Shown here: positions 1 through 12,850 of the stretch, piece by piece
Position numbering within the stretch: position 1 is the stretch's first letter
Layout: every line of letters begins with the position of its first letter
NCBI GenBank assembly: GCA_963169235.1
Contig: CAUJCX010000040.1
Span: 1 to 38,070, forward strand
DNA from: Actinomycetota bacterium
GTDB taxonomy: Bacteria; Actinomycetota; Thermoleophilia; Miltoncostaeales; Miltoncostaeaceae
DNA length: 38,070 bases
Direction of reading: 5' to 3'
Notes under the pieces: generated by a model
What the model was told of the DNA's origin: nothing
Seen by the model: the letters and a program-made list of their open reading frames with translations, nothing else
The model's database searches: none
Made by a program: the position numbers and the translations under genes

Positions 1-492
1 CTGGTCACCGACTGCCACGCGTTGTACCTGAGCGCACCGCATCACGTTCGCCGTCAACTGAACCAGGCCGTCTTCGAGAAGATCTTCGTGGAGGACGGCG
101 AGGTGCCGACCGGCAGGCTGGCGTCTCCGTTCGGAGAGCTCTTGAGCCTGGTCGAGCAGACCGAATCGAAAGAGTGGGGCTCTGAGGAACAGCTGAAGCG
201 CTACCTGCGGAAGTCCCCGTCGGAAGCGACGAGCATCCAGGAGATCGAGAGGACGATCGCCCGGATCCTGGCCGAGAACGAAGAAGGGGCCGTCCTGATG
301 GACGACCCCGGGAAAAGCAAGAACCCTGGCCCCTCATTGCTGGGCCAGGGTTCGAACGTCGCGCTTATGGCGGAGGAGGGGGGATTTGAACCCCCGTCGG
401 ACCGAAAGGCCCGAAACGGTTTTCGAGACCGCCGCATTCGACCGCTCTGCCACCCCTCCGCGGGGAACCGTATCAGGGGTGTCCAGCACTGA
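1..492 (+). CDS. Serine site-specific recombinase, C-terminal end (5' end outside window)
   Basis: The frame is open from base 1 and encodes a stretch with VRRQLNQAVFEKIFVEDGEV and a following PFGELLSL. This is the usual C-terminal pattern of large serine recombinases of phages and integrative elements (RR.lNqa.F.ki.v). These enzymes cut and rejoin att sites through an N-terminal catalytic serine, which lies outside the window. There is no stop after the recombinase part. The frame runs through a hairpin (321-353) and the antisense of tRNA-Ser (368-459) before TGA at 490-492, so the last ~45 residues are probably a by-product of the junction. The gene points at the tRNA 3' end, the arrangement expected for an integrase at the edge of an element inserted at a tRNA. 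The family call is fairly firm; whether the gene is intact cannot be judged. Confidence 0.72.
   Translation: MVTDCHALYLSAPHHVRRQLNQAVFEKIFVEDGEVPTGRLASPFGELLSLVEQTESKEWGSEEQLKRYLRKSPSEATSIQEIERTIARILAENEEGAVLMDDPGKSKNPGPSLLGQGSNVALMAEEGGFEPPSDRKARNGFRDRRIRPLCHPSAGNRIRGVQH
321..353 (-). terminator. Rho-independent terminator of tRNA-Ser(CGA)
   Basis: A perfect 12-bp inverted repeat (321-332 with 342-353) has a 9-base loop. On the minus strand it is followed by cttgctttt. It lies 15 bases past the 3' end of the minus-strand tRNA-Ser and inside the reading frame of the recombinase. Confidence 0.6.
368..459 (-). tRNA. tRNA-Ser (anticodon CGA)
   Basis: This 92-nt class II tRNA has a 7-bp acceptor GGAGGGG/CTCCTCC with one GU pair, and the anticodon loop CTCGAAA on a 5-bp stem gives anticodon CGA (reads UCG). 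It has a long variable arm and a T-arm GGGGG-TTCAAAT-CCCCC. Discriminator G and CCA are encoded. Its 3' end faces the recombinase fragment. Confidence 0.95.
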
Positions 493-874: not shown

Positions 875-2389
875 ATGAGAATCCCCCTGACCGGGCGTGC
901 GCTTGCGCGCGCTGCTTTGGCCGTTGGTCTCCTGGTTCCCGCGGCCGCCGCTGCGGACGCCGCCGAGCTGACCGCGTCCCGCACGAGCCTGCGCGAGTGG
1001 ACCCCTCTGGTGCAGCGCACCGCCGCGATCCAGCTCATCCGCGCCGGCGCCGACGGGCGCGTGGTGCGCCTGCGCGACGGCAAGCGGGGTGCGGGCTACG
1101 TGGTGCTGTCGACCCGCACCGCGCCTCAGGTCACCATGATCGGCACGGCGCGCCTGAACGTGCGCCGGCAGCGGATGGCGCTGCGCTCGGCCCGGGCGAT
1201 GATCGAGCTGCGGGGAGAGGGACGCAGCGTGGAAGCGGGTCCCTACCGCGACGCGGTCGGCAACGTGCGCTGGGCCGCGTGGACGAAGGGCGCCGACGGC
1301 GGCCGCCGCGCGCTGGCCGTGAGCCCCGAGCCCGTGCGCATGTCGCAGTGGTCCACCGTGACGCTGGCATCGCGCTGGGCGGGGGACGACTCCCGCGCAT
1401 CGCTGCGCATCGACGGCCGGGTGGTGGTGCGGCTGCCGAAGCTGGTGCTGCCCATGGGCGCGACGTCGGCCAACATCGGCCTGGGCCGCGCCTCGCGCAA
1501 GGGCGAGAAGGGCGTGCTGCTGGTGCGCAACGCCCGCGTGTGGGGCACCGAGCTGCAGGCACCGGTGCAGGCCGACCATGCCCACGTGGCAGCCGTCGCG
1601 CCCGAGGCCACCCCCGACGCCGCGGCGCCGCCCGCGGCAACGCCCCCTGCCGCGCCGCCCGCCGCCCCCGCGCCCACCCCCACTCCGCCGGCGCAGCCGC
1701 CCATCACCGCGCCGCCCGCAATCGCCCCGCCCATCCTCCCCGGCCGGGAAGTGGCGCGTCTGGACTTCGAGAACGGATTCGGCAACGCCGGCTTCCAGGC
1801 GGTGTCGCGCGACCGCATCACGCAGGTGACCAACCCCGTGGCCGCCGGGCGCTATGCCGGCCGGTTCGAGGTGCGCCCCGGCGACACGCCCATCGACAGC
1901 AGCGAGCGCGCGGAGCTCTCGCTCGACACGGGCGAGTCGGAGGGCGAGGAGCGCTGGTACTCGTGGGCCGTCATGTTCGACCAGGGCTTTCCCAGCGGCG
2001 GCCAGTGGCAGGTGGTGAGCCAGTTCCACTCCACCGCGCCGCGGCAGCCTCCGGTGGGCTTCTACGCCGAGAACAACCGCTTCCGCCTGCAGGTGTGGCC
2101 GAAGAACGCCGACGGCTCGCAGGCCGCGCCCGAGCGCACCATCTGGTCGACCACGCTGCAGCGGGGCGTCTGGTATCGCATCACCCTGCACGCGCGCTGG
2201 TCGGGCAGCGACACGTCCGGGTTCGTCGAGCTGTTCGTCAACGGCAAGCCCGCCGGGTCGAAGACGTACATCCGCACGCTGGCCCCCGGGTCGCCCAACT
2301 ACTTCAAGATGGGCTACTACCGCAACTCGGGCTTCAGCCAGACGGGCGTCGTCTACATCGACGACTTCCGCGCCACGCAGGTGAACTGA
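875..2389 (+). CDS. Secreted polysaccharide lyase with N-terminal accessory domain
   Basis: Start ATG 875 is chosen because GAGGG lies 9 bases upstream; TTG 866 has no room for a Shine-Dalgarno site. The 504-aa protein begins with a signal peptide ending near AAAAADA (about residues 25-31). A beta-rich domain (about 35-225), an Ala/Pro linker (about 240-290) and a C-terminal jelly-roll domain follow. The last domain carries SSERAELS, QFHST and YFKMGYYRN. These resemble the RxEL, QxH and YFKxGxY signatures of jelly-roll polysaccharide lyases (PL7/PL20-like, heparin-lyase-like Pfam families). They would cleave uronic-acid-containing polymers by beta-elimination outside the cell; the substrate cannot be read from sequence. 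A lipoprotein paralogue lies at 32338-33171. The gene stands alone with its own promoter. Confidence 0.72.
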   Translation: MRIPLTGRALARAALAVGLLVPAAAAADAAELTASRTSLREWTPLVQRTAAIQLIRAGADGRVVRLRDGKRGAGYVVLSTRTAPQVTMIGTARLNVRRQRMALRSARAMIELRGEGRSVEAGPYRDAVGNVRWAAWTKGADGGRRALAVSPEPVRMSQWSTVTLASRWAGDDSRASLRIDGRVVVRLPKLVLPMGATSANIGLGRASRKGEKGVLLVRNARVWGTELQAPVQADHAHVAAVAPEATPDAAAPPAATPPAAPPAAPAPTPTPPAQPPITAPPAIAPPILPGREVARLDFENGFGNAGFQAVSRDRITQVTNPVAAGRYAGRFEVRPGDTPIDSSERAELSLDTGESEGEERWYSWAVMFDQGFPSGGQWQVVSQFHSTAPRQPPVGFYAENNRFRLQVWPKNADGSQAAPERTIWSTTLQRGVWYRITLHARWSGSDTSGFVELFVNGKPAGSKTYIRTLAPGSPNYFKMGYYRNSGFSQTGVVYIDDFRATQVN

Positions 2390-2434
2390 ACGGACATCCC
2401 GGCACCGGGGGGCTGCGCGGCGGCCTCCCGATGC

Positions 2435-2440
2435 TAGGAT
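2435..2440 (+). promoter_or_regulatory. Putative -10 box for tRNA-Val
   Basis: TAGGAT is located 10 bases before the tRNA 5' end. No clear -35 was seen. Confidence 0.35.
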
Positions 2441-2450
2441 CCCTCCTCCC

Positions 2451-2522
2451 GGGCAGTTAGCTCAGCGGGAGAGCGCTCGCCTCACACGCGAGAGGTCACT
2501 GGTTCAATCCCAGTACTGCCCA
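2451..2522 (+). tRNA. tRNA-Val (anticodon CAC)
   Basis: Acceptor GGGCAGT/ACTGCCC is complete, and the anticodon stem ctcgc/gcgag encloses loop CTCACAC, giving anticodon CAC. The T-arm contains GGTTCAATC. The discriminator A is not followed by CCA, unlike the two tRNA-Ser genes, so the CCA tail must be added by an enzyme. Confidence 0.95.
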
Positions 2523-2547
2523 CTCCTGTTCCCACCGAAGGGTGCCG

Positions 2548-2829
2548 ATGGCGTCCGACCGCTCCCGACCCGGCCTGATGGACAACCGCTTCGCCCTGGT
2601 GCTCGCGGGCGTCGTGCTGGGCGCCCTGTGGGGGCTGGTCATGTGGGGGCTCGCCACGCTGCTGGGCAACGACTCGGGCGTGCGCGGCCTGGTGTACCTG
2701 GTGCTCACCATGGCCATGCTCGGCGGCGGCGTCGCCGCGTTCTTCGGGGTGTTCGGCGTGGTGCGCCGCGGCGAGCGGGTCGCCCCGCGCATCCGCCGCG
2801 ACCGCGACGGCGGGGAGCCTCGCGGATAG
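2548..2829 (+). CDS. Small two-helix membrane protein, unknown function
   Basis: This 93-aa protein starts at ATG 2548, with gaaggg 5 bases upstream. A basic N-terminus is followed by two hydrophobic segments (about 17-40, FALVLAGVVLGALWGLVMWG, and about 50-73). A charged cytoplasmic tail RRGERVAPRIRRDRDGGE ends the chain. I do not recognise a family. It sits between tRNA-Val and SRP RNA without an obvious partner. The high GC and third-position bias match the neighbouring genes, which supports real coding. Confidence 0.6.
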   Translation: MASDRSRPGLMDNRFALVLAGVVLGALWGLVMWGLATLLGNDSGVRGLVYLVLTMAMLGGGVAAFFGVFGVVRRGERVAPRIRRDRDGGEPRG

Positions 2830-2842
2830 TCGCCGGGTCGAC

Positions 2843-2848
2843 TATCCT
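2843..2848 (+). promoter_or_regulatory. Putative -10 box of SRP RNA
   Basis: TATCCT is placed 6-8 bases before the likely 5' end of the SRP RNA. Confidence 0.4.
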
Positions 2849-2853
2849 TCCCG

Positions 2854-3120
2854 GGTGGTCGTGCTAGGCGGGGAGCTAGCGGTTCCCTGTACCCGAAATC
2901 CGCTTCACGCGGGGCACAACTCCCATCCTCGGGGCGCGTCTTCGTGGGTATGGGCACGCGACACGTGGTGTTGATGGGAAGGTCCCATTCGATGGGCGAC
3001 TGCGAACCAGGTCAGGTCCGGAAGGAAGCAGCCTTAAGCGGACCCGCCCATGCGCAGTGGGGTCACCTTGCCGGAGCCGGCGGCGCGCGTACCGTCCACG
3101 TCGATCGTCACAACGAAGGG
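2854..3120 (+). ncRNA. ffs: Signal recognition particle RNA, large bacterial type
   Basis: The RNA scaffolds Ffh for co-translational membrane targeting. The near-universal SRP core is at 3007-3033 (ccaggtcaggtccggaagga followed by agcagcc). Upstream, gtgctaggcggggagctagc and the next ccctgtacccg match the 5' Alu domain of the long form found in Gram-positive bacteria, so this is not the short 4.5S type. Helix 5 pairing can be traced outwards (for example gatgggcg with cgcccat, acgtgg with ccacgt near 3097, cttcgt with acgaag near 3113). This suggests a 3' end near 3120 and about 267 nt in total. The core is certain; both ends are estimates. Confidence 0.88.
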
Positions 3121-3203
3121 TGCACGGCCACCTACTGTTTCGGGCAGCACGTCCCGGCGCGCCCGCGCCGCGGCTCCGCTGCCACGCACGTGAAAGGGCG
3201 ACG

Positions 3204-4994
3204 CTGACCTCGGCCGACCAGGGCGCCAGCCTCTACAACCGGTACCGCCCCACCACGTTCGAGGAGATGGTGGGCCAGGAGCACGTCGCCCGCGCCGTGG
3301 GCAACGCGCTGCGCGCCGGGCGCCCCGCACGCGGCTACCTGTTCTCGGGGCCCCGCGGCACCGGCAAGACCACCACGGCCCGCATCCTCGCCCGCGGCCT
3401 CAACTGCCAGTCGGTCGACGCGCCCACCGCCACCCCGTGCGGCACGTGTGACTCGTGCCGGCGCATCGGCCACGACGACTGGCTCGACGTGGTGGAGGTG
3501 GACGCCGCATCCAGCGCCCGCCGCATCGACGAGATGCGCGATTGGCTCGAGACCGTCCGCTACGCGCCCGTGGCGTCCCGCTACCGGGTCACCATCATGG
3601 ACGAGGCCCACCAGATCCAGGACGGCGCGTCGAGCGCCCTGCTGAAGACGCTGGAGGAGCCGCCGCCGCACCTCATCGTGATCCTCTGCACCACCCACCC
3701 CTGGGACCTGCTGCCCACCATCCGCAGCCGCGTGCAGCACTTCGTGCTGCGCAAGCCCGGCATCCCCGGCCTCACGCGGGTGCTGCAGCGCGTCGCCGAC
3801 GCGGAGGGCTTCACGGCCAGCGAGCCGGCCCTCGACGCCCTGGCGCGCGCCGCCGACGGCTCGTACCGAGACGCACTGGGCCTGCTGGACCAGCTGGCGG
3901 CGTACGGCGACGGCGAGATCGGCATCGAACAGGTGCGCGAGCTGTCCGGATCGGTGGCCCGCGAGACGCTGTTCGAGCTGACCGACCTGGTGAGTGACGG
4001 CGAGGCCCCCGGCGCGTTCCTGATGCTGGAGGACGTGCTCGACGGTGGCGCCGACCCCGAGCAGTTGCTGCGCGAGCTGGTGACGCACATGCGGTACGCG
4101 TGCCTTCTGCAGCAGGGGGCGGGCGTGCGTGACGAATGGGCGTACGCCCCCGACGAGCTCACGCGCCTCGAGGCCCAGGCCAACCGCGTGCCGCCGCGCC
4201 TCACCGTGCGCGCACTCGACCTGCTGGCCGACGCCCAGCTGCGCATCCGCCACGGCGGCGCCGACCCGCGCCTGCAACTGGAGCTGATCCTCGCCAAGCT
4301 GGCCCGTCCCGAGCTTGACGGCGGCGCGGGCGGCCCGGCTCCCGGCGGCGCCCGCACGGCGCCCGCCGCGCCCCCTGCTGACGTCCCCCGGCTGCGGCCC
4401 GCGCCCGACCCGGACCCGCCGCCCGTGGTCGCGTCCGCCCCGCCCGCCGAACCGTCCGCCCCGGCCGCGCCCGCCGAACCGTCCGCCCCGACCGCGCCTG
4501 CGCCCGTGGCCGCGGTGCCGGACGCACCCACCCCGCCCGCGGAGCCGGCGCCGCAACCCGACGCCGTCGCGCCTCCTCCTGCGCCCGAGGCACCCCCGGC
4601 GCCCACCGGGCCCGTGCCCGCCGACGTCGAGCACGTCACGCGCCTGTGGCCCCAGGTTGTCCAGGCGGTGTCGACGTCCGCTCCGCCCTTGGTGGGCTTT
4701 TTGCAGGAGGCGCAGGTGCCGCGCGTCACCGGCGACGTCGTGCACCTGGCCGTCAGTCCCGTGGGCGCCAGCATGCTGGCCCGTCCCGAGTACCGGCGCA
4801 GCGTGGAGCACGCCCTGGCGGGGGTGATGGGCCGGCCTTTGCGCGTGGAGGTCGCTGCTGCCGCCGCCGCCCCGGCGCCCCGCCGCCCCGAGGCCTCCGA
4901 GCAGCCGCTCGACCTCGATACCCTTCGCCGCGAGCTGATGTCGACGTTCGATGCGACCCCCGAGGACGACGCGTCCTCGTCCGCCAACACCTAG
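3204..4994 (+). CDS. dnaX: DNA polymerase III subunit gamma/tau (clamp loader ATPase)
   Basis: DnaX loads the beta clamp onto DNA in the replisome. Numbering from CTG 3204 (596 aa), the Walker A motif GPRGTGKT is at 49-56, zinc-binding cysteines are at 68, 79, 82 and 85, and Walker B/DEAH is at 133-136. Sensor 1 (ILCTTHPWDLLPTIRSR) and the GSYRDALGLLDQL sensor-2 region follow. An Ala/Pro linker (about 375-480) leads to the tau-type C-terminal domain. The conserved start ASLYNRYRPTTF has no ATG, GTG or TTG before it except GTG 3120, which lies in the SRP RNA end and has no correctly spaced Shine-Dalgarno site. GAAAGGG (3192-3198) sits 5 bases before CTG 3204, so I infer a CTG start. It is first in an operon with ybaB and recR (13-base gap). 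Confidence 0.93.
   Translation: MTSADQGASLYNRYRPTTFEEMVGQEHVARAVGNALRAGRPARGYLFSGPRGTGKTTTARILARGLNCQSVDAPTATPCGTCDSCRRIGHDDWLDVVEVDAASSARRIDEMRDWLETVRYAPVASRYRVTIMDEAHQIQDGASSALLKTLEEPPPHLIVILCTTHPWDLLPTIRSRVQHFVLRKPGIPGLTRVLQRVADAEGFTASEPALDALARAADGSYRDALGLLDQLAAYGDGEIGIEQVRELSGSVARETLFELTDLVSDGEAPGAFLMLEDVLDGGADPEQLLRELVTHMRYACLLQQGAGVRDEWAYAPDELTRLEAQANRVPPRLTVRALDLLADAQLRIRHGGADPRLQLELILAKLARPELDGGAGGPAPGGARTAPAAPPADVPRLRPAPDPDPPPVVASAPPAEPSAPAAPAEPSAPTAPAPVAAVPDAPTPPAEPAPQPDAVAPPPAPEAPPAPTGPVPADVEHVTRLWPQVVQAVSTSAPPLVGFLQEAQVPRVTGDVVHLAVSPVGASMLARPEYRRSVEHALAGVMGRPLRVEVAAAAAAPAPRRPEASEQPLDLDTLRRELMSTFDATPEDDASSSANT
4441..4494 (+). repeat. 27-bp tandem duplication in the dnaX linker
   Basis: Two copies (4441-4467 and 4468-4494) differ at one base and encode the repeated PPAEPSAPA-type linker. 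It is in frame, so it only changes linker length. Confidence 0.8.
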
Positions 4995-5007
4995 GGAGCG
5001 CCGCGCA

Positions 5008-5328
5008 ATGGGCATGAACCCGCAGAAGATGATGAAGCAGATGCAGAAGATGCAGCAGGAGATGGAGCGGGTGCAGACCGCGCTCCAGGAGGAGCACGTC
5101 TCGGCCACGGCCGGCGGGGGCGCCGTCACCGCGACGGTCAGCGGCGGGCTGGAGCTCGTGTCGGTGAAGCTGTCGCCCGAGGTGGTCGACCCCGAGGACA
5201 TCGAGATGCTCGAGGACACCGTCGTGGCCGCCGTCAACGAGGCTCTGCGCCAGGCGCAGGACCTCGCGTCGAAGCGCATGGGCGAGGTCACCGGCGGGCT
5301 GTCCGGCCTCGGCCTGCCCGGCTTCTAG
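5008..5328 (+). CDS. ybaB: YbaB/EbfC family nucleoid-associated protein
   Basis: This 106-aa protein has the family layout: a Met/Gln-rich N-terminal helix (MMKQMQKMQQEMERVQ, about 7-22), a central beta part with VSATAGGGAVTATVSGG, and a C-terminal helix ending in GGLSGLGLPGF. YbaB forms DNA-binding dimers associated with the nucleoid, and the gene is found between dnaX and recR in many bacteria, as here. Start ATG 5008 has AGGGAG 9 bases upstream; ATG 5014 is a possible alternative. It follows dnaX by 13 bases and is in the same frame as recR, with 15 bases between its stop and the proposed recR start. Confidence 0.93.
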   Translation: MGMNPQKMMKQMQKMQQEMERVQTALQEEHVSATAGGGAVTATVSGGLELVSVKLSPEVVDPEDIEMLEDTVVAAVNEALRQAQDLASKRMGEVTGGLSGLGLPGF

Positions 5329-5343
5329 GCCGGAGCCGCCACC

Positions 5344-5937
5344 ATCCTCACGCCGTCGCTCGAGCGCCTGGTGGCCGAGCTGTCGCGGCTGCCGGGCATC
5401 GGTGCCCGCAGCGCGCAGCGGCTGGCGTTCCACCTCTTGCGCCAGCCCTCCGAGCGCTCGCTGGCGCTGGCCGCCGCGCTCACGGGCCTCGCCGAGCGCA
5501 TCCACCCGTGCCCGCGGTGCTTCAGCTTCGCCGAGGACGAGCTGTGCCCCATCTGCGCCGACCAGCGCCGCGACCCCTCGCTTCTGTGCGTGGTGGAGGA
5601 GCCGTCCGCGATCCTGCCGATCGAGCGCACGTCCGAGTACCGCGGCTACTACCACGTGCTGGGCGGGGCGCTGTCGCCCATCGACGGCGTCGACCCTGAC
5701 GACCTGCGCATCGCCGAGCTGCTCGCCCGCGTGGAGGCCGAGGGCGTCGCCGAGGTGGTGATCGCCACCAACCCCACCATGACCGGCGAGGCGACGGCGC
5801 TCTACCTGGCCGACGCGCTGCGCGGCAAGGTGCGCATCACCCGCCTGGCCTCGGGCCTACCGGTGGGCGCCGACCTGGAGCACGCCGACGAACTCACCCT
5901 GGGCCGGGCCCTGCTGGGCCGCCGCGAACTGGCGTAG
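5344..5937 (+). CDS. recR: Recombination mediator protein RecR
   Basis: RecR works with RecO (and RecF) to load RecA on gapped DNA. Visible are the helix-hairpin-helix LPGIGARSAQRLAFHLL, the C4 zinc finger CPRCFSFAEDELCPIC, a Toprim domain with CVVEEPSAILPIERTSEYRG and HVLGGALSPIDG, and the conserved C-terminal end LTLGRALLGRRELA. The first conventional codon, GTG 5371, would delete the N-terminal helix. The frame continues upstream as LTPSLERLVAELSR. ATC 5344 has GGAG 8 bases before it and lies 15 codons before LPGIG, the same distance as the Met of mycobacterial RecR as I recall it. I therefore infer AUC initiation (197 aa). It is the third gene of the dnaX operon. Confidence 0.92.
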   Translation: MLTPSLERLVAELSRLPGIGARSAQRLAFHLLRQPSERSLALAAALTGLAERIHPCPRCFSFAEDELCPICADQRRDPSLLCVVEEPSAILPIERTSEYRGYYHVLGGALSPIDGVDPDDLRIAELLARVEAEGVAEVVIATNPTMTGEATALYLADALRGKVRITRLASGLPVGADLEHADELTLGRALLGRRELA

Positions 5938-6040
5938 CGGGGCGCACACAGAGGTACGAATCGCGTACTTGCGCCCCCGCCGACGGCGGGTGTTGCGTCC
6001 TCGTGCGAGGGAAATGTACGGTCCACATGGAGGTCGGACA

Positions 6041-6667
6041 GTGCGTAGACAGAGGATTGTGGCCCTCGGCGCGGCCGCAGCGTGTGCTCTCGGTGCCGGG
6101 GTCGTGGTGGTATCCCACGCGAACTCCGAGGCGGAGCCTTCCCCCTCCCTCTACGTGCCTGATTCGCCCGTCGCCCCCGGCGCGCCAACCGCACGTGCGC
6201 CCCGCACCACCGACGGCGTGTCGTTCCTTTCACCGACGGCCTCCGCGATCGGCGCCGCGGCCGCACGGCAGCTCCCGAGCGGCTACTCGATCTCCGTCGT
6301 CCGCTCGTTGCGGGGTCGTACGGGGCACGGCACGGCCGCGTACGAACACGCCGACGCCCGAGGGCACCGTGGCGACCTCTACCGCATCTCGCACTTCCGG
6401 CGCTTCGCCCCGGACGAACTCGACGCACAGCCCGACTTCGTGCGCGGTGAGTCCCCCGCGGGGCGGTACTGGATCACCACCGACGACGACGGGCTTCAGG
6501 CCGTCACCGTGCTGACGGCCGCCGGGGTCGCGGTCAGGGTCGATCATTTCTCCGTCACACCGGCCGACCGCGTCGCCATCCCGGCCTTGCTGGACCTGGC
6601 GTGGAACACCGCTCGCGACCTCGCGGCCGGCGACCCGTCATCTGGCGCCGCCACGGCGCCGACCTGA
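6041..6667 (+). CDS. Secreted or membrane-anchored protein, unknown function
   Basis: This 208-aa protein starts at GTG 6041, with GGAGG 7 bases upstream. The N-terminus MRRQRIVALGAAAACALGAG is a signal peptide or membrane anchor. A Pro/Ala/Ser stretch (about 30-60) and a soluble domain with YRISHFRRFAPDEL and RYWITTDDDGLQAVTVLTA follow. I recognise no family. Codon choice is more mixed than in the flanking genes (less dominated by ctg/gtg/cgc) and the gene stands alone between recR and lysC, which fits an accessory insertion. There is no sign of catalytic motifs. Confidence 0.55.
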   Translation: MRRQRIVALGAAAACALGAGVVVVSHANSEAEPSPSLYVPDSPVAPGAPTARAPRTTDGVSFLSPTASAIGAAAARQLPSGYSISVVRSLRGRTGHGTAAYEHADARGHRGDLYRISHFRRFAPDELDAQPDFVRGESPAGRYWITTDDDGLQAVTVLTAAGVAVRVDHFSVTPADRVAIPALLDLAWNTARDLAAGDPSSGAATAPT

Positions 6668-6928: not shown

Positions 6929-8170
6929 ATCGCCCTGCGTGTGATGAAGTTCGGCGGCAGTTCCGTGGCCGATGCGGAGAAGATCCGCACCGTGGCGCGC
7001 CGCATCGCCGACGCGAAGGAGTCGGGGGACGACGTGGTGGCCGTCGTGTCGGCCCGCGGCAAGACCACCGACGGGCTCGTGGCCGACGCGATGGAGATCA
7101 GCGCCCGCCCCGATCCGCGCGAGATGGACATGCTGCTGTCGACCGGCGAGCGCATCTCGTGCGCGCTGATGGCGATGGCGCTGCACGACCTGGGGCACGA
7201 GGCCGAGTCGTTCACGGGCTCCCAGGCGGGCATCTTCACCGACGCCCAGCACACCAAGGCGCACATCCTCGAGATGCAGCCGCACCGGCTGGAGGAGTCG
7301 CTGAAGGCCGGCCGCATCGTGCTGGTGGCGGGCTTCCAGGGCATGTCGAAGGAAGACAAGAACGTCACCACGCTGGGGCGCGGCGGCAGCGACACCACCG
7401 CCGTGGCGCTGGCCTCGGCGCTCAACGCGTCGGTGTGCGAGATCCACAGCGACGTCGTCGGCGTCTTCACCGCCGATCCCCGCATCGTGCCGGGCGCCGC
7501 CAAGCTGGCGCGCATCACGCACGAGGAGATGCTCGAGATGGCGGCGATGGGGTCGAAGGTGCTGGCCCTTCGCGCCGTCGAGTTCGCCCGCAACCACGAC
7601 GTGCGCCTCCACGCACGCTCCACGTTCCTGCCCGTCGAGGGCACCTGGATCATCAAGGAGACACCCGATATGGAGCAGGCCATCGTGTCCGGCATCGCGC
7701 ACCGCAGCGATGAGGCCAAGATCACGGTGACGGGCGTCCGCGACCAGCCCGGCATCGCGGCGGCCATCTTCACGGCCCTCGCGGACGCGCTGATCAACGT
7801 GGACACCATCATCCAGAACATCGGCATCCACGGGCACGCCGACCTGTCGTTCACGGTGCCGCTGGTGGAGCTGACTCCCGCCCGCGACGCGCTCGAGAGC
7901 GTGCGCGGCACCCTGCAGTTCGACGACGTCATCACCGACGACCAGATCGGCAAGGTCACGCTGGTCGGGGCGGGCATGAAGTCGAACCCCGGCGTGGCCG
8001 CCAAGATGTTCCGGGTGCTGGCCGCCGAGGGCATCAACATCCAGATGATCGACACGTCGACCATCCGCATCAGCGTGGTCATCGACCGGCGCGACGTCGA
8101 GCGGTCGGTGCGCGCGCTGCACGACGCGTTCGACCTCACGTCCGAGGCCGCCAGGAGGGCCAATGTTTAA
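6929..8170 (+). CDS. lysC: Aspartate kinase with two ACT domains
   Basis: It phosphorylates aspartate, the first step towards lysine, threonine, methionine and diaminopimelate. The kinase start KFGGSSVADAEKI, the core GFQGMSKEDKNVTTLGRGGS followed by DTTAVALA, and two C-terminal ACT domains (about 262-335 and 345-410, the latter with NPGVAAKMFRVLAAEGINI) are clear. The ACT domains imply feedback control by end-product amino acids. Conventional starts are poor: GTG 6902 has no Shine-Dalgarno site, and GTG 6941/ATG 6944 are 18 or more bases from one and cut the first strand. AAGGAG (6917-6922) is 6 bases before ATC 6929, whose product (M)ALRVMKFGG aligns residue for residue with typical MALxVxKxGG starts. 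I infer AUC initiation (413 aa). It overlaps asd by 8 bases. Confidence 0.93.
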   Translation: MALRVMKFGGSSVADAEKIRTVARRIADAKESGDDVVAVVSARGKTTDGLVADAMEISARPDPREMDMLLSTGERISCALMAMALHDLGHEAESFTGSQAGIFTDAQHTKAHILEMQPHRLEESLKAGRIVLVAGFQGMSKEDKNVTTLGRGGSDTTAVALASALNASVCEIHSDVVGVFTADPRIVPGAAKLARITHEEMLEMAAMGSKVLALRAVEFARNHDVRLHARSTFLPVEGTWIIKETPDMEQAIVSGIAHRSDEAKITVTGVRDQPGIAAAIFTALADALINVDTIIQNIGIHGHADLSFTVPLVELTPARDALESVRGTLQFDDVITDDQIGKVTLVGAGMKSNPGVAAKMFRVLAAEGINIQMIDTSTIRISVVIDRRDVERSVRALHDAFDLTSEAARRANV

Positions 8171-9170
8171 CGTCGCCGTCGTCGGCGCCACCGGGGCCGT
8201 CGGCTCCACCATGCTGCGCGTGCTCGAGGAGCGGGGCTTCCCCGTCAGCGAGCTGCGTCCGCTCGCCAGCGCCCGCAGCGCGGGCAAGAGCATCGAGTTC
8301 CTGGGTAAGGACTTCGCGGTGCGCGAGCTGTCGAACACCAGCTTCGAGGGCATCGACATCGCCCTGTTCTCGGCCGGCGGCCCGCGGTCGCGCTCGTTCG
8401 CGCCCGCCGCGGTGGAGGCCGGCGCCGTGGTCATCGACAACTCGTCCGCGTACCGCATGGACCCGGACGTGCCGCTGGTGGTGCCCGAGGTCAACGAGGA
8501 CGCCATCCGCGAGCACCAGGGCATCATCGCCAACCCCAACTGCGTCGCCGCCCCGCTGGTGGTGGCGCTGAAGCCCATCGCCGACGCCGTCGGCCTCGAG
8601 CGCGTGGTGCTGTCGAGCTACCAGGCGGTCAGCGGCACGGGCGTCGCCGCCGTGGAGGAACTGCGCGCCCAGGCGGCCGGCTACCTGGCGGGCGACGAGC
8701 CCGCGCCGCAGGTGTACCCGCATCCCATCGCGTTCAACGTGCTGCCCCACATCGACGTGTTCGACGAGACCGGCTACACGGGCGAGGAGCGCAAGGTCAT
8801 CGCCGAGACGCAGAAGATGCTGGGCATGCCCGACCTGCGGGTGAGCGCCACGTGCGTGCGCGTGCCGGTGCTGAACTCGCATTCCGCGTCCGTGCACATC
8901 GAGACCACCGAGCCCATCACCGCCGAACGGGCCCGCACGCTGCTGATGGCCGCGCCGGGCGTCGCCCTGCGCGACGAGCCCTCCGCCAACGTCTACCCGC
9001 TGCCGCGGGACGCGACGGGCGTGGACGAGGTGCTGATCGGGCGCATCCGCAACGACCTGTCGCACCCCAACGGGCTGGTGCTGTGGTACTCGTCGGACAA
9101 CCTGCGCAAGGGCGCGGCCACCAACGCCGTGCAGATCGCCGAGTCGCTGGTTACGAAGGGCTGGTTGTAG
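8163..9170 (+). CDS. asd: Aspartate-semialdehyde dehydrogenase
   Basis: This enzyme reduces aspartyl phosphate to aspartate semialdehyde with NADPH, directly after LysC. The 335-aa chain starts with the nucleotide-binding loop VAVVGATGAVGSTMLRVLEE. The catalytic cysteine is Cys127 in IIANPNCVAAPL, followed by SYQAVSGTGVAAVEEL and the C-terminal substrate-binding part. ATG 8163 has AGGAGG shortly upstream and overlaps the lysC stop by 8 bases, so translation is probably coupled. The 3' end overlaps the convergent TPM-like gene by 20 bases (9151-9170). Confidence 0.95.
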   Translation: MFNVAVVGATGAVGSTMLRVLEERGFPVSELRPLASARSAGKSIEFLGKDFAVRELSNTSFEGIDIALFSAGGPRSRSFAPAAVEAGAVVIDNSSAYRMDPDVPLVVPEVNEDAIREHQGIIANPNCVAAPLVVALKPIADAVGLERVVLSSYQAVSGTGVAAVEELRAQAAGYLAGDEPAPQVYPHPIAFNVLPHIDVFDETGYTGEERKVIAETQKMLGMPDLRVSATCVRVPVLNSHSASVHIETTEPITAERARTLLMAAPGVALRDEPSANVYPLPRDATGVDEVLIGRIRNDLSHPNGLVLWYSSDNLRKGAATNAVQIAESLVTKGWL

Positions 9171-10257
9171 GCGTCGGCTCGGTCTCCGGTGCCTGGGCGG
9201 CGTCCGGCACCGGGGACAGCTCCACCTGATCGAACGGCACCGGGCCGTCGAGCGTCGGTAGCACCCTGCGCCTGATGGGCCTGCCCGCCTTCGCCTCCCC
9301 GGCGCAGCGGCGGCACACCGGCACGCGTCCGGGGCGGTCGGCCAGCGTCGCCACGTCGTAGGCAAGGCCGTGGGCCGGATCGGCGCTGCACAGGCCGTCG
9401 AGGGGCCGGTCGGCAGGGAACGGCTCGCCTACAAGCTCCCCGGCGCGCGCGGCCTCGCGCAGGCCCGCGTCGAGGGCGGCGAACCCGGCGGGGGCGTCGA
9501 ACAGGGAACCCGCCAGCTGGGCGGCGGCCCGGCCCGCGCTGTGGTGATGCTGGGCGAGGCTGAGTGCCTCGGCCGCCTCGGGCGGGCCCGCGGCGACGGT
9601 CGTGTCGAGCGCCCGCAGGCGGGCGTCGAGCGCGTCGAGACCCAGCACCAGGGCGCCGCGTTCGTGGTCGGCCACCCGCCGTGCCCGGCGCTGCTCGCGT
9701 CGCAGGCCCCAGCCCACGGCGGCGGCGGCGCCCAGCACCGCCAGCACGATGAACGCCACCAGCCCGCGCCAGCCGCTGGGGGGGCGCGGCGGGGGCGGCA
9801 CCGCGATGTCGGCCGCCCGCCTCAAGCGCTCGGATGCGCTGCCCATCTCGTTCACCCGTGCTGCCGTGAACCCGGCCCGCAGCGACCGCGGCGTGCGCAG
9901 GCCCGCGGCGCCGACCGGACCGGTGAGGGTGGTCACCAGCAGCGTGCCGTCGTACCCCAGGCGCGCGCGCAGGCGCTGCGCGTACCCGAACACGCCGTCG
10001 CCCCGCAGGTCGGTGACGATCGCCAGCTTCACGGGGAAGTCGCGCCCGCGCAGCTCGTCCACCTTCTCCTGCAGCCGGGCCGCGATCGTGGGGGCGACGT
10101 CCCTCCCCAGGTCCTCCGTGGCCACGTAGACGTCGCCGTTGGACAGCGCCTCGAACGCCGCCGCGTCGTCCCGCGGGATGGCCCCGGCGGGGGACGTGGC
10201 CCCCACCAGCGCCGTGAACAGCGCGGCCACGACCACGACGAACGCGCGCGGGCTCAC
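9151..10257 (-). CDS. TPM-domain-like membrane protein
   Basis: This 368-aa protein has a signal peptide (MSPRAFVVVVAALFTALVGA). A TPM-like extracytoplasmic domain follows (about 35-135: DVYVATEDL, VKLAIVTDLRGDGVFGYAQRL, GTLLVTTLTG). One membrane helix (about 165-185, GLVAFIVLAVLGAAAAVGWG) leads to a cytoplasmic helical region. A C-terminal segment with C..DPAHG and VCRRCAGEA looks like a small metal-binding knuckle. TPM proteins are poorly defined; roles in membrane-protein quality control or phosphatase activity are known for some members, and no specific function can be claimed here. GTG 10257 overlaps the stop of the upstream GNAT gene by 4 bases, so the two are translationally coupled. 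Confidence 0.6.
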   Translation of the reverse strand: MSPRAFVVVVAALFTALVGATSPAGAIPRDDAAAFEALSNGDVYVATEDLGRDVAPTIAARLQEKVDELRGRDFPVKLAIVTDLRGDGVFGYAQRLRARLGYDGTLLVTTLTGPVGAAGLRTPRSLRAGFTAARVNEMGSASERLRRAADIAVPPPPRPPSGWRGLVAFIVLAVLGAAAAVGWGLRREQRRARRVADHERGALVLGLDALDARLRALDTTVAAGPPEAAEALSLAQHHHSAGRAAAQLAGSLFDAPAGFAALDAGLREAARAGELVGEPFPADRPLDGLCSADPAHGLAYDVATLADRPGRVPVCRRCAGEAKAGRPIRRRVLPTLDGPVPFDQVELSPVPDAAQAPETEPTPTTSPS

Positions 10258-10886
10258 GACGGCTCCCGCAACGCGGCGGGCATCGGCGACGACACCGACA
10301 GCGACCGCAGGGGCTGCGTCAGGCGGGCCAAGAGACCCGGCTCCATCGCGGGCACCAGCCCGCCCAGCGACAGCCGCATCAGCGACACCTGGCCCCGGCT
10401 GCGCACCACCCGGAACCCGAAGCGCTCGAGGAACGCGCGGTCGAACAGCGTGTGGTGCTCCTCGAAGCGGGCCTCCCGGGGCACGTCGTCCGAGAACGTC
10501 AGGCCGAACACCTCCACGGCCGCCACGCGCCGGGCCTTCAGGTCGGCCAGGGCCTCCAGCACCAGGTGCTCACACACCCCTGCCAGGTCGTCGCCCGCCA
10601 TGAACACGCACGTGATGAGCGCGGCGTCCCGCGACGGGGGACCCGCCGGCAGGTCGCGCGCCCGCGGGAACGCCCCGGACGGACCGAACTGGATGAACCC
10701 CCGGAACCGCCCGCCCTCCTCGATCAGCCGCCCCCAATGCCCGAACGAGCGCTCCACGCCCTGGGCCCAGCGCTCCTTCACGTCGGGGTCCACCACGCGC
10801 GACCGGTGCTGCCAGAACACGCAGTGCTCACAGCACTCGGGGGCGTCGCGGCGCGTGGCCGCGCACAGGGGACGGAGCTCGCTCAC
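10254..10886 (-). CDS. GNAT-like acetyltransferase with N-terminal cysteine motif
   Basis: This 210-aa protein has Cys18, Cys19 and Cys22 followed by VFWQ near the N-terminus. The cysteine-FW motif, then VKERWAQGVERSFGHWGRLI and GFIQFGPSGAFPRA, matches a GNAT subgroup common in actinobacteria. The region LITCVFMAGDDLAGVCEHLVLEAL would be the acetyl-CoA-binding part. The typical RGxGxG pyrophosphate loop is not seen, so catalytic ability is uncertain. It is the first gene of a two-gene minus-strand unit with the TPM-like protein. The GTG 10886 start has G-rich sequence immediately upstream and is only moderately supported. Confidence 0.6.
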   Translation of the reverse strand: MSELRPLCAATRRDAPECCEHCVFWQHRSRVVDPDVKERWAQGVERSFGHWGRLIEEGGRFRGFIQFGPSGAFPRARDLPAGPPSRDAALITCVFMAGDDLAGVCEHLVLEALADLKARRVAAVEVFGLTFSDDVPREARFEEHHTLFDRAFLERFGFRVVRSRGQVSLMRLSLGGLVPAMEPGLLARLTQPLRSLSVSSPMPAALREPS

Positions 10887-10959
10887 CCCTTCATGATGCC
10901 AACATCGCGCGGCCGACTCGATGAACGCGGGGTAAGCACCGCGGCGTCGGCCAACGCGA

Positions 10960-10989
10960 AGGGCCGCCTCCCGGTAGGGAGACGGCCCT
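10960..10989 (-). terminator. Terminator of the sdh operon
   Basis: A 13-position stem (10960-10972 with 10977-10989, one mismatch) has loop ggta, 28 bases past the sdhE stop on the minus strand. The following minus-strand sequence is only weakly T-rich (ttcgcgtt). Confidence 0.55.
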
Positions 10990-11016
10990 CGGCCATCGCA
11001 CGCGTATGCGGACGGA

Positions 11017-11898
11017 CTAGCGTCCGACGACGTCCAGCACGGGCTCCACCGACACCATGTGGCGCTTGAACTGCATCACCGACTGGTCGAGGCCCAGCGC
11101 CATGCCGATGAGCTGCGGCAGGTGCAGCACCGGCATGTTGTACTCGGTGGCGTTCGCCTCCTCGGCCTTCTGCTGGTAGGCGTCCATCGCCAGGTGGCAC
11201 AGGGGGCACGGGGTCACCATGCACTCCGCGCCGGCGTCGCGCGCCTGCGACAGGGCGACGTGCGACTCCTTCAACGCCACCGCCTCGCGGGCGAGGATGA
11301 TGGGGAAACCGCAGCACTTGGACTTGGCCTCGTAGTCGGCCACCTCGCCGCCCAGGGCTCGGATGAGGCGCTCGAGCGACTGCGGCTGGTCGGGGTCCTC
11401 GAAGCCCATCACCGACGACGGCCGCAGCAGCTGGCAGCCGTAGTACGGGGCGACGCGCAGGCCGTTGAGGCCCTTGGGTCCCTGCTTCTCGAGCAGCGAC
11501 AGCCCCTCTTCGGTGGCGAGGTACCACAGGAGGTGGGTGACGTCGACGGTGCCCTCGTACGGGCGCGCGCCGGCCTTCACCAGCTCCTCGTTGACGGCCT
11601 CGAGCACGCGCGGGTCGTCCTTCACGATCTTGTTCGCGCGCCGCAGGTTGAGCGTGCACACGTTGCAGATCGTCATCACGTCGGCACCCATCTCCTCGGC
11701 CTGCGAGAGGATGCGGACGTTCAGCGACAGGTACAGGTTGGGCTTGGCCTCGGCGATGTCGCCGGCGCCGCAGCACGTCGCGGCCGGCATCGGCAAGAGG
11801 TCGATGTCGAGCATGGGCGCGAGCGCCTTGGTCGTGGCGTTGAGCTCCTTGGAGCTGAACTCCGCGATGCACCCGGGGTAGTAGGCGAACTTCGCCAT
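11017..11898 (-). CDS. sdhE: Succinate dehydrogenase HdrB-like subunit (two CCG domains)
   Basis: This 293-aa protein is of the heterodisulfide reductase subunit B family. Two complete CCG modules are visible: Cys10, Cys42-Cys43, Cys78, Cys81 and Cys155, Cys195-Cys196, Cys231, Cys234. Such modules bind unusual iron-sulfur clusters in HdrB. In class E (non-classical) SDHs of Sulfolobus-type archaea, cyanobacteria and some Campylobacterota this subunit replaces the heme-containing SdhC/SdhD anchors and links the enzyme to the membrane quinone pool. No membrane helix is visible here. The gene follows sdhB by one base, with AAGGAG in the sdhB end, and is last in the operon. The name sdhE here means this subunit, not the small flavinylation factor of the same name. 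Confidence 0.88.
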   Translation of the reverse strand: MAKFAYYPGCIAEFSSKELNATTKALAPMLDIDLLPMPAATCCGAGDIAEAKPNLYLSLNVRILSQAEEMGADVMTICNVCTLNLRRANKIVKDDPRVLEAVNEELVKAGARPYEGTVDVTHLLWYLATEEGLSLLEKQGPKGLNGLRVAPYYGCQLLRPSSVMGFEDPDQPQSLERLIRALGGEVADYEAKSKCCGFPIILAREAVALKESHVALSQARDAGAECMVTPCPLCHLAMDAYQQKAEEANATEYNMPVLHLPQLIGMALGLDQSVMQFKRHMVSVEPVLDVVGR

Positions 11899-11899
11899 G

Positions 11900-12850
11900 C
11901 TAGATCGTCTCCTTCACGTTCTTGATGAGCTTCTTGACCTCGCTCAGCCTCTTGATGCGGTGAGGGATCGGCGACGGGGCCTTGCCCTTCTTCATCATCT
12001 TCAGCGCGAACGGCACGTCCAGCTGCGACTTGATGGGGTTCGTGAACGGCACCAGCATGGTCTCGTTCAGCTTGCCGCCGGTCTTCATCGAGATGAGGAA
12101 CGCCTTGGCGTGGCGGGCACCGGGGTCGCCCCAGCTGATGCCCTCGTTGAACGCGATGCCGCCCAGCTTCTCGATGGCGTCGCGCGGGTCGACGCCCTTG
12201 GGGCACCGCTCGTTGCAGTACATGCAGCGGGTGCAGTCCCAGATGCCGTGCTGCCCGGAGTACAGCTTGGCGCGCGCGCGGCGCTGGCCGTCACGCTCGT
12301 CGCCCGCGAAGCGGTAGCCCCACGCGAACGCGGCGGGGCCGACGAACTCGGGGTCGGCCGCGAACGAGTTGCACTCGCTGTAGCAGGCGGCGCACAGGAT
12401 GCACTTGCTCTCGTTGTAGATCTTCTGCATCGCCTCCTTCGAGACGATGCGCTCCTTCTCGGGCGGAGGTCCGTCGGGGATCAGGTACGGCTTCACCGAC
12501 TTGAACTTCTCCCAGAACGGGTCCATGTCGACGACGAGGTCCTTGATCGGCGCGAAGTTGCCGATGGGGTCCACCCGCACCGTCTCGCAGCCGAACTCCT
12601 CCTTGACGGCCTCGACCTGCGTCATGCAGGCCAGCACCGTCTTGCCGTTGACGCGGACCGCGCACGATCCGCAGATGGCGCTGCGGCACGAGTAGCGCAC
12701 GGCCAGCGAGCCGTCCTGCTCGTTCTGCAGCTCGAGCATGGCGTCGAGGATGGTGAACTCGGACTCGTGCTCGAGGTCGAACGACTGCCGGTACGACTCG
12801 TCCGAGAAGTCCGGCTGGTAGCGGAAGATGTCGAACGTGGTCTGCGGCAT
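11900..12850 (-). CDS. sdhB: Succinate dehydrogenase iron-sulfur subunit, non-classical type
   Basis: It passes electrons from the SdhA flavin to the quinone-side subunit. The 316-aa chain has the [2Fe-2S] ligands Cys55, Cys60, Cys63 and Cys75. Two further motifs of the form CxxCxxCxxxC follow: Cys150/153/156/160 and Cys206/209/212/216. Classical SdhB has a three-cysteine [3Fe-4S] site at the second position. The extra cysteine here is the feature reported for class E enzymes and suggests a second [4Fe-4S] cluster. The chain is longer than classical SdhB (about 240 aa), with a basic C-terminal extension. The ATG shares its first base with the sdhA stop, so translation is coupled. Confidence 0.93.
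   Translation of the reverse strand: MPQTTFDIFRYQPDFSDESYRQSFDLEHESEFTILDAMLELQNEQDGSLAVRYSCRSAICGSCAVRVNGKTVLACMTQVEAVKEEFGCETVRVDPIGNFAPIKDLVVDMDPFWEKFKSVKPYLIPDGPPPEKERIVSKEAMQKIYNESKCILCAACYSECNSFAADPEFVGPAAFAWGYRFAGDERDGQRRARAKLYSGQHGIWDCTRCMYCNERCPKGVDPRDAIEKLGGIAFNEGISWGDPGARHAKAFLISMKTGGKLNETMLVPFTNPIKSQLDVPFALKMMKKGKAPSPIPHRIKRLSEVKKLIKNVKETI

Follow-up and report, generated by a model that had tools for sequence, protein, structure and literature searches.

The window (the whole stretch of 38,070 nt analysed here, taken from contig C40 of genome G000, an assembly of 65 contigs) opens with a recombinase frame that runs on through the antisense of a tRNA. A sequence-only reading had taken its first 492 nt to be the edge of an integrated element, with the crossover near the 3′-end of a tRNA-Ser gene and the natural stop of the recombinase on the other attachment half. 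We asked whether this is so, where the other end of the element lies, and what integration does to the recombinase frame. It is very probable that the window up to a core at 370-373 is the attL of an element integrated at tRNA-Ser(CGA), with attP inside the 3′-end of its recombinase gene, and that the remainder is chromosome.

Results

The recombinase frame, the tRNA gene, and the hairpin

Frame 1 of the plus strand is open from base 1 to a stop codon at 490-492 (163 codons; ORF reading of the window), and within it lies the whole antisense of a tRNA-Ser(cga) located by ARAGORN at 368-459 on the minus strand. Recombinase coding without a stop through the putative terminator hairpin and the tRNA antisense, as first read, was confirmed: the arrangement is a real observation. 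Base 1 of contig C40 is base 1 of the window, and the 5′ part of the recombinase therefore lies outside it. A Pfam search with the window fragment gave no match. Its closest relative in the family is the end of a full-length gene of G019 (76% identity over 118 residues), whose protein (P0001) carries Resolvase, Recombinase, and Zn_ribbon_recom domains in one chain; through this full-length relative the fragment, a C-terminal end only, is assigned to the large serine recombinases.

Inside the recombinase frame, a hairpin (GAACCCTGGCCC/GGGCCAGGGTTC, 321-353, minus strand, by eye) is T-rich on the tRNA side and is likely the terminator of the tRNA transcript. Stems of at least 7 were present in 71 of 91 related loci (13 of 91 when shuffled); at least five T followed the stem in only 26 of 91 (three when shuffled).

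The contig end coincides with the window start, as would be expected of a false join induced by a repeat. The same junction is nevertheless found on the 3.68-Mb contig 1 of the three-contig G019 genome, and the same architecture recurs in genomes of named strains, which leaves an assembly artefact with next to no probability.

Distribution in the family

A recombinase match was found in four of 42 family genomes (three of 27 among the better genomes); the other 38, some of them incomplete, gave none. The tRNA region was matched in 34 of 42, some matches being other tRNA-Ser genes. G011, of the same genus, has the tRNA-Ser(cga) and no recombinase match. The recombinase adjoins tRNA-Ser(cga) in G000 and G019, and G010 has a truncated copy beside the neighbouring tRNA-Ser(gga), with the same element end on a different target. 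In all three genomes the sequence 3′ of the tRNA reads ccgCCA.aag..cgacgttcgaaccctg. It is different in the seven recombinase-free relatives compared (G001, G006, G009, G011, G013, G014, and G018), where the encoded CCA is also absent (ccgct in five, ccgtt in two). At its junction with the element the tRNA-Ser(cga) of the window is intact, and element sequence completes its encoded CCA, according to the ARAGORN call and the alignments. The window's own tRNA-Ser(gga), its neighbour, encodes CCA although no element adjoins it, so an encoded CCA does not by itself indicate an insertion.

A resident, immobile recombinase gene that merely abuts the tRNA, its open frame being a chance of base composition, would accord with an arrangement common to G000 and G019. 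The antisense of tRNA genes is often open in the frame of the recombinase, which is a further point for that explanation. Against it stand the 38 genomes without a match and the seven unlike junctions.

The other end of the element

The other end was sought by synteny with G011, before any arm of the window's element was known. Sequence 3′ of the G011 tRNA maps to contig C38 of G000 in two blocks (730-849 corresponding to 1969-2089, and 1123-6442 to 7363-12750), between which C38 holds additional sequence. An attR is located near the start of that contig (G000:C38:826-829), where GCGG is followed by GCCTCGCGCGATTGAAGCTGAACCC on the minus strand. In the att alignment, attL and attR have only these 4 bp in common (GCGG, window 370-373, matching C38 829-826), and the exchange point would fall within them. 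C38 and C40 are separate contigs with the element interior unassembled, their ends being linked only through synteny and the geometry of the att sites. An Rfam search of C38 1500-2500 found nothing.

The proposed edge of an integrated element is thus upheld, with attL in the window and attR found through G011, and a located attR is also at odds with an immobile gene. The crossover had been placed near 300-370; the common core lies at the edge of that range. The direct repeat of 320-400 expected at the far end did not materialize: there is no long repeat at attR beyond the 4 bp. Likewise, no displaced tRNA fragment of the kind carried by Islander-type genomic islands at tRNA genes was found at the far end.

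The predicted attP is GGTTCGAACGTCGCGCTTATG-GCGG-GCCTCGCGCGATTGAAGCTGAACC, and the predicted attB is the native tRNA 3′-side sequence with its own hairpin. A pattern made from the C38 arm had a match without mismatches in G019, which there delimits an element about 16.3 kb long; allowing up to three mismatches, it was matched in six of 42 family genomes (reversed control, 0).

Other searches for element ends failed. A matrix seeded from other elements gave no convincing arm in 130 kb of G019, in G000:C29, or in the G010 stretch; the G019 attR does lie in the 130 kb scanned, and its arm is unlike the matrix seeds. A degenerate pattern run on six whole genomes matched mostly ordinary tRNA T-arms and missed C38. 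No synteny was found between G018 and the 130 kb of G019. For the empty site of the G140 element, stretches from four same-genus genomes contained the attR host flank without a following tRNA, and a search from the tRNA side turned up short matches to the tRNA-Lys 3′-end, dispersed through the same genomes. Att sites of serine integrases are described as hard to predict owing to their short cores (PMC10654092, in the passages drawn on here). In a separate observation, several tRNA-Lys 3′ matches (about 40-46 bp) lie kilobases apart in G136:C14 and in G228:C12 and C15, as in tandem islands.

Geometry of the attachment sites

On the P′ side, the element arm carries the motif GGTTCGAAC (349-357, plus strand; motif comparison), a putative zinc-domain site. 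The span from TTCGAA to GCTGAA in the predicted attP is 45, counted by eye, and equals that of the G064 tandem junction; two-arm spans of 45 were also counted by eye in G008, G019, G059, and G140. In attL the span from the arm motif to the T-arm is 40 in 65 of 91 loci and 39 in 24 of 91; the remaining two (55 and 34) may have been misplaced by the search expression. The T-arm (ATTTGAACC, 384-392, minus strand; spacings by eye) thus replaces the second arm motif and is 5 bp closer to the core than in attP. For characterized serine integrases, the cited part of Rutherford and others (PMC3783163) gives positions 16-24 of attP for the zinc-domain motif, which in attB is closer by 5 bp. The sites described here have the corresponding short core, with the attP motif 5 bp farther out than that of attB, on the tRNA-side half of attB. 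We infer that this recombinase lineage reads the tRNA T-arm, its zinc domain probably contacting the T-arm motif.

An element inserted by a tyrosine integrase, with the serine recombinase as cargo, would also end at a tRNA. At the same tRNA-Ser(cga), G009 carries a separate element of 8.3 kb, with a 60-bp tRNA repeat and a gene resembling tyrosine integrases (L053, 18-107 and 8345-8404), and G019 has a distant 60-bp copy of the tRNA 3′-end. The attL and attR of the window, on the other hand, have 4 bp in common rather than 60, their arms bear a like motif on both sides at serine-integrase spacing, and the recombinase gene keeps its end at the att site in most of the relatives that were compared. 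We therefore consider insertion by a tyrosine integrase very improbable and retain integration by the serine recombinase itself. Sequence comparison shows both junctions, the common core, the spacing of 45 vs. 40 bp, and the open frames in attL and the predicted attP.

Related loci

Related loci were selected by recombinase similarity and are not independent of one another. In the first set, 25 of 31 had a tRNA or tmRNA (ARAGORN) at the recombinase 3′-end, two of them adjoining tmRNA; the other six comprised a two-arm junction in G008, a tandem junction, a truncated gene, and three loci with tRNA-like pieces (by eye). In the named-genome set (the best 80 of 554 loci), which spreads over many actinobacterial genera, 69 of 80 had an ARAGORN tRNA in this position, and of the remaining 11, four had tRNA 3′ pieces, five ran off the contig, and two were junctions without a tRNA. 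The combined set numbered 94 loci against a tRNA or tmRNA 3′-end, 91 of them distinct (three contigs, recognized by equal length, were present twice). Targets were Ser, Val, Pro, Arg, Lys, Ala, Leu, Met, and His tRNAs (nine isotypes) and tmRNA. Allowing for ARAGORN's choice of tRNA start, the frame relative to the tRNA was identical in all loci (by eye), and no stop was found between domain and tRNA in the tRNA-adjoining loci, two early stops lying upstream of the open frame.

Two loci of the lineage have a stop before the core, and their near relatives have none there: L143, beside a tRNA piece, and L179, on a viral contig and adjoining no tRNA. At L161, a junction without a tRNA, the recombinase frame continues towards a helix-turn-helix-like coding stretch. 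About 11 kb of a tRNA-His element is identical (rounded 100%) between Tessaracoccus bendigoensis and Granulicoccus phenolivorans (L150 and L176), which suggests a recent transfer or a sample mix-up.

The viral-contig set held 67 loci, 61 of them less than 40% identical. None of the five viral-contig relatives of the lineage had an ARAGORN tRNA; L178, L180, and L188 adjoin tRNA 3′ pieces and L177 a T-arm-like stretch. In five of the 61 distant loci (L184, L187, L191, L203, and L242, of which three are closely related) there is an overlap with a tRNA, in a different frame; two more, L195 and L208, finish in tRNA-like sequence, and the rest mostly have their own stop without a tRNA. Together with element B of G059, an inner 4.3-kb element whose different serine recombinase also overlaps the tRNA, the five point to the same overlap in a second recombinase group.

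Elements also occur in tandem, at tRNA-Val in G064:C83 and G059:C64 (L244-L247). The L107/L244 contig, considered as an intact attP, had no end overlap and proved to be the junction of two tandem elements. The window's own genome holds a second serine recombinase (L010, G000:C29:1075-2928), likewise near a contig start, whose frame enters the antisense of a tRNA-Ala(cgc). In G008:C182 and C105 and in G007:C226 (L338-L359), arm copies lie 1.3-3.9 kb apart, mostly without a partner arm at the usual distance, in cassette-like arrays.

Element cargo

The G019 element (about 16.3 kb) encodes the recombinase, an M78 peptidase, a Replic_Relax protein, a conjugation coupling protein, a cadmium transporter family protein, and an oligonucleotide cyclase (PADLOC). 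Integrative and mobilizable elements, a possible class for these elements, are marked by relaxase-like and coupling-protein genes without a full secretion system; Replic_Relax and coupling-protein domains were found among nine proteins of the G019 element, the interior of the window's element being unassembled. The C38 end of the latter encodes part of a C5 DNA methylase. The G140 element (26.7 kb) carries Gabija GajA and GajB and type I restriction and methyltransferase genes (PADLOC).

The recombinase frame in the free form

In the predicted attP of G000 the frame is open past the core, runs into MAGLARLKLNPNLLTLMARGSG, and stops there, about 20 codons on. The frame is likewise open beyond the core in the predicted attP of G019, G064, and G140 and stops later. 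In all four predicted attP sites the stop thus falls where the first reading had proposed it, on the other att half. In two less certain attP candidates (G301 and G229) the frame also continues past the core, one stopping after about five codons; their attR candidates had entered the matrix that scored them, and they are weaker than the other four. What would differ between the excised and the integrated form is the C-terminus of the recombinase.

The coding status of the tail was examined in 90 tRNA loci, 87 after three with less than 30 nt between the matched part and the tRNA had been dropped. Between the matched domain and the tRNA (41 distinct lengths), the recombinase frame had stops in none of the 87, the +1 frame in 74, and the +2 frame in 50. 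Linker differences in 18 pairs were distributed over the three codon positions as 114/69/177 (P = 2e-11, a guide only, given the kinship among loci). Changed codons comprised 153 nonsynonymous and 109 synonymous ones, so that selection on the tail appears weak, while the coding bias before the tRNA is, by these counts, clear. Stops in both other frames of the same stretches also tell against an open frame by chance, and with the attR and the family comparison they make a resident, immobile gene a very unlikely explanation of the locus.

A requirement for the tRNA-coded tail itself was considered and dropped: at tRNA-His, 10 of 13 loci have a frame that stops 6-8 bases inside the tRNA. The free form was sought with the L067 recombinase as a query. 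Among 50,697 phage records it found nine distant matches (E up to 1e-30), and among plasmids none (E up to 1e-50), so that no free form came to light.

Discussion

Proposed mechanism

In the course of events that we favour, the element's large serine recombinase, with attP located within the 3′-end of its own gene, would recombine attP with the 3′-end of tRNA-Ser(CGA), where the conserved T-arm would serve it as one attB half-site. Strand exchange would take place at a presumed dinucleotide in the GCGG core within the acceptor stem. The product would be a complete tRNA, now with an encoded CCA and a terminator supplied by the element, and the integrated recombinase frame would run through the tRNA antisense and end just past the tRNA. 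On the free circle its stop would come about 20 codons beyond the core, in the other half of attP. The recombinase is presumably an active enzyme.

The exchange of tails could be a switch: integration would rewrite the integrase C-terminus from attP-coded to tRNA-antisense-coded and alter the enzyme's directionality, stability, or level; the enzyme would in this way sense integration, and a lineage reading the universal T-arm could move among many tRNA genes and keep the switch. We regard this idea as doubtful. The free-form tails beyond the arm are not alike among elements, and for this reason their exchange may be without effect.

Comparison with known systems

The nearest precedent is found in the ssrA islands of Dehalococcoides, where, according to the cited part of PMC3146451, the 3′-end of the serine recombinase gene dsiB overlaps attL and its stop lies only outside the island, even in ssrA. 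The window has the same overlap, with the integrase 3′-end over attL and the stop beyond the element. The DsiB target, insertion in the ssrA T-loop with a 20-bp repeat, was not found here, the window's target being tRNA-Ser with the core in the acceptor stem. As described there, the DsiB islands concern one genus and one tmRNA target, and DsiB is CcrB-like with a DsiA partner; the likeness noted here is one of architecture. The same source calls these islands integrating and mobilizable elements, reports them in tandem, and suggests that full function of the recombinase may be limited to the circular form (PMC3146451).

There is a weak sequence match to the solved A118 integrase. Integrases of the A118/LI type have protein genes as targets. 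Their domain order is like that found here, and so is the motif 5 bp closer to the centre in attB than in attP, whereas an attP inside the integrase gene is not described in the passages of PMC3783163 drawn on here. Serine recombinases of Mycobacterium AICEs (PMC3218068) resemble the present ones in being actinobacterial, from conjugative elements integrated at a tRNA; they number eight with a single target, tRNA-Leu, and in the portion cited, serine integration into tRNA is called rare and a frame/tRNA overlap is not described. The phiRSM integrase of Ralstonia filamentous phages is, like that of the window, a serine recombinase acting on tRNA-Ser, but its site is given as 13 bp and its attP lies between two genes rather than inside int (PMC4471427, in part). 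In mycobacteriophage BPs, as here, attP lies within a gene and integration alters the C-terminus of a protein; that gene is a repressor with a degradation-tag tail (PMC4557955, as excerpted), whereas here it is the integrase, with a tail to which no role is assigned.

No report on the window's recombinase lineage was found in the open-licence literature. The window is thus a known kind of arrangement, with DsiB as precedent, in a lineage for which no report was found. New here are the breadth of targets (nine tRNA isotypes and tmRNA), the T-arm geometry, the located stop of the free form, and the coding bias of the tail. With the T-arm at the position of an attB half-site, a single contig end gives one half of attP and one of attB, and the arm motif leads to what remains of the two sites. 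If active, integrases of this lineage would find targets in any cell and, if the tail matters, would possess a simple device for sensing integration.
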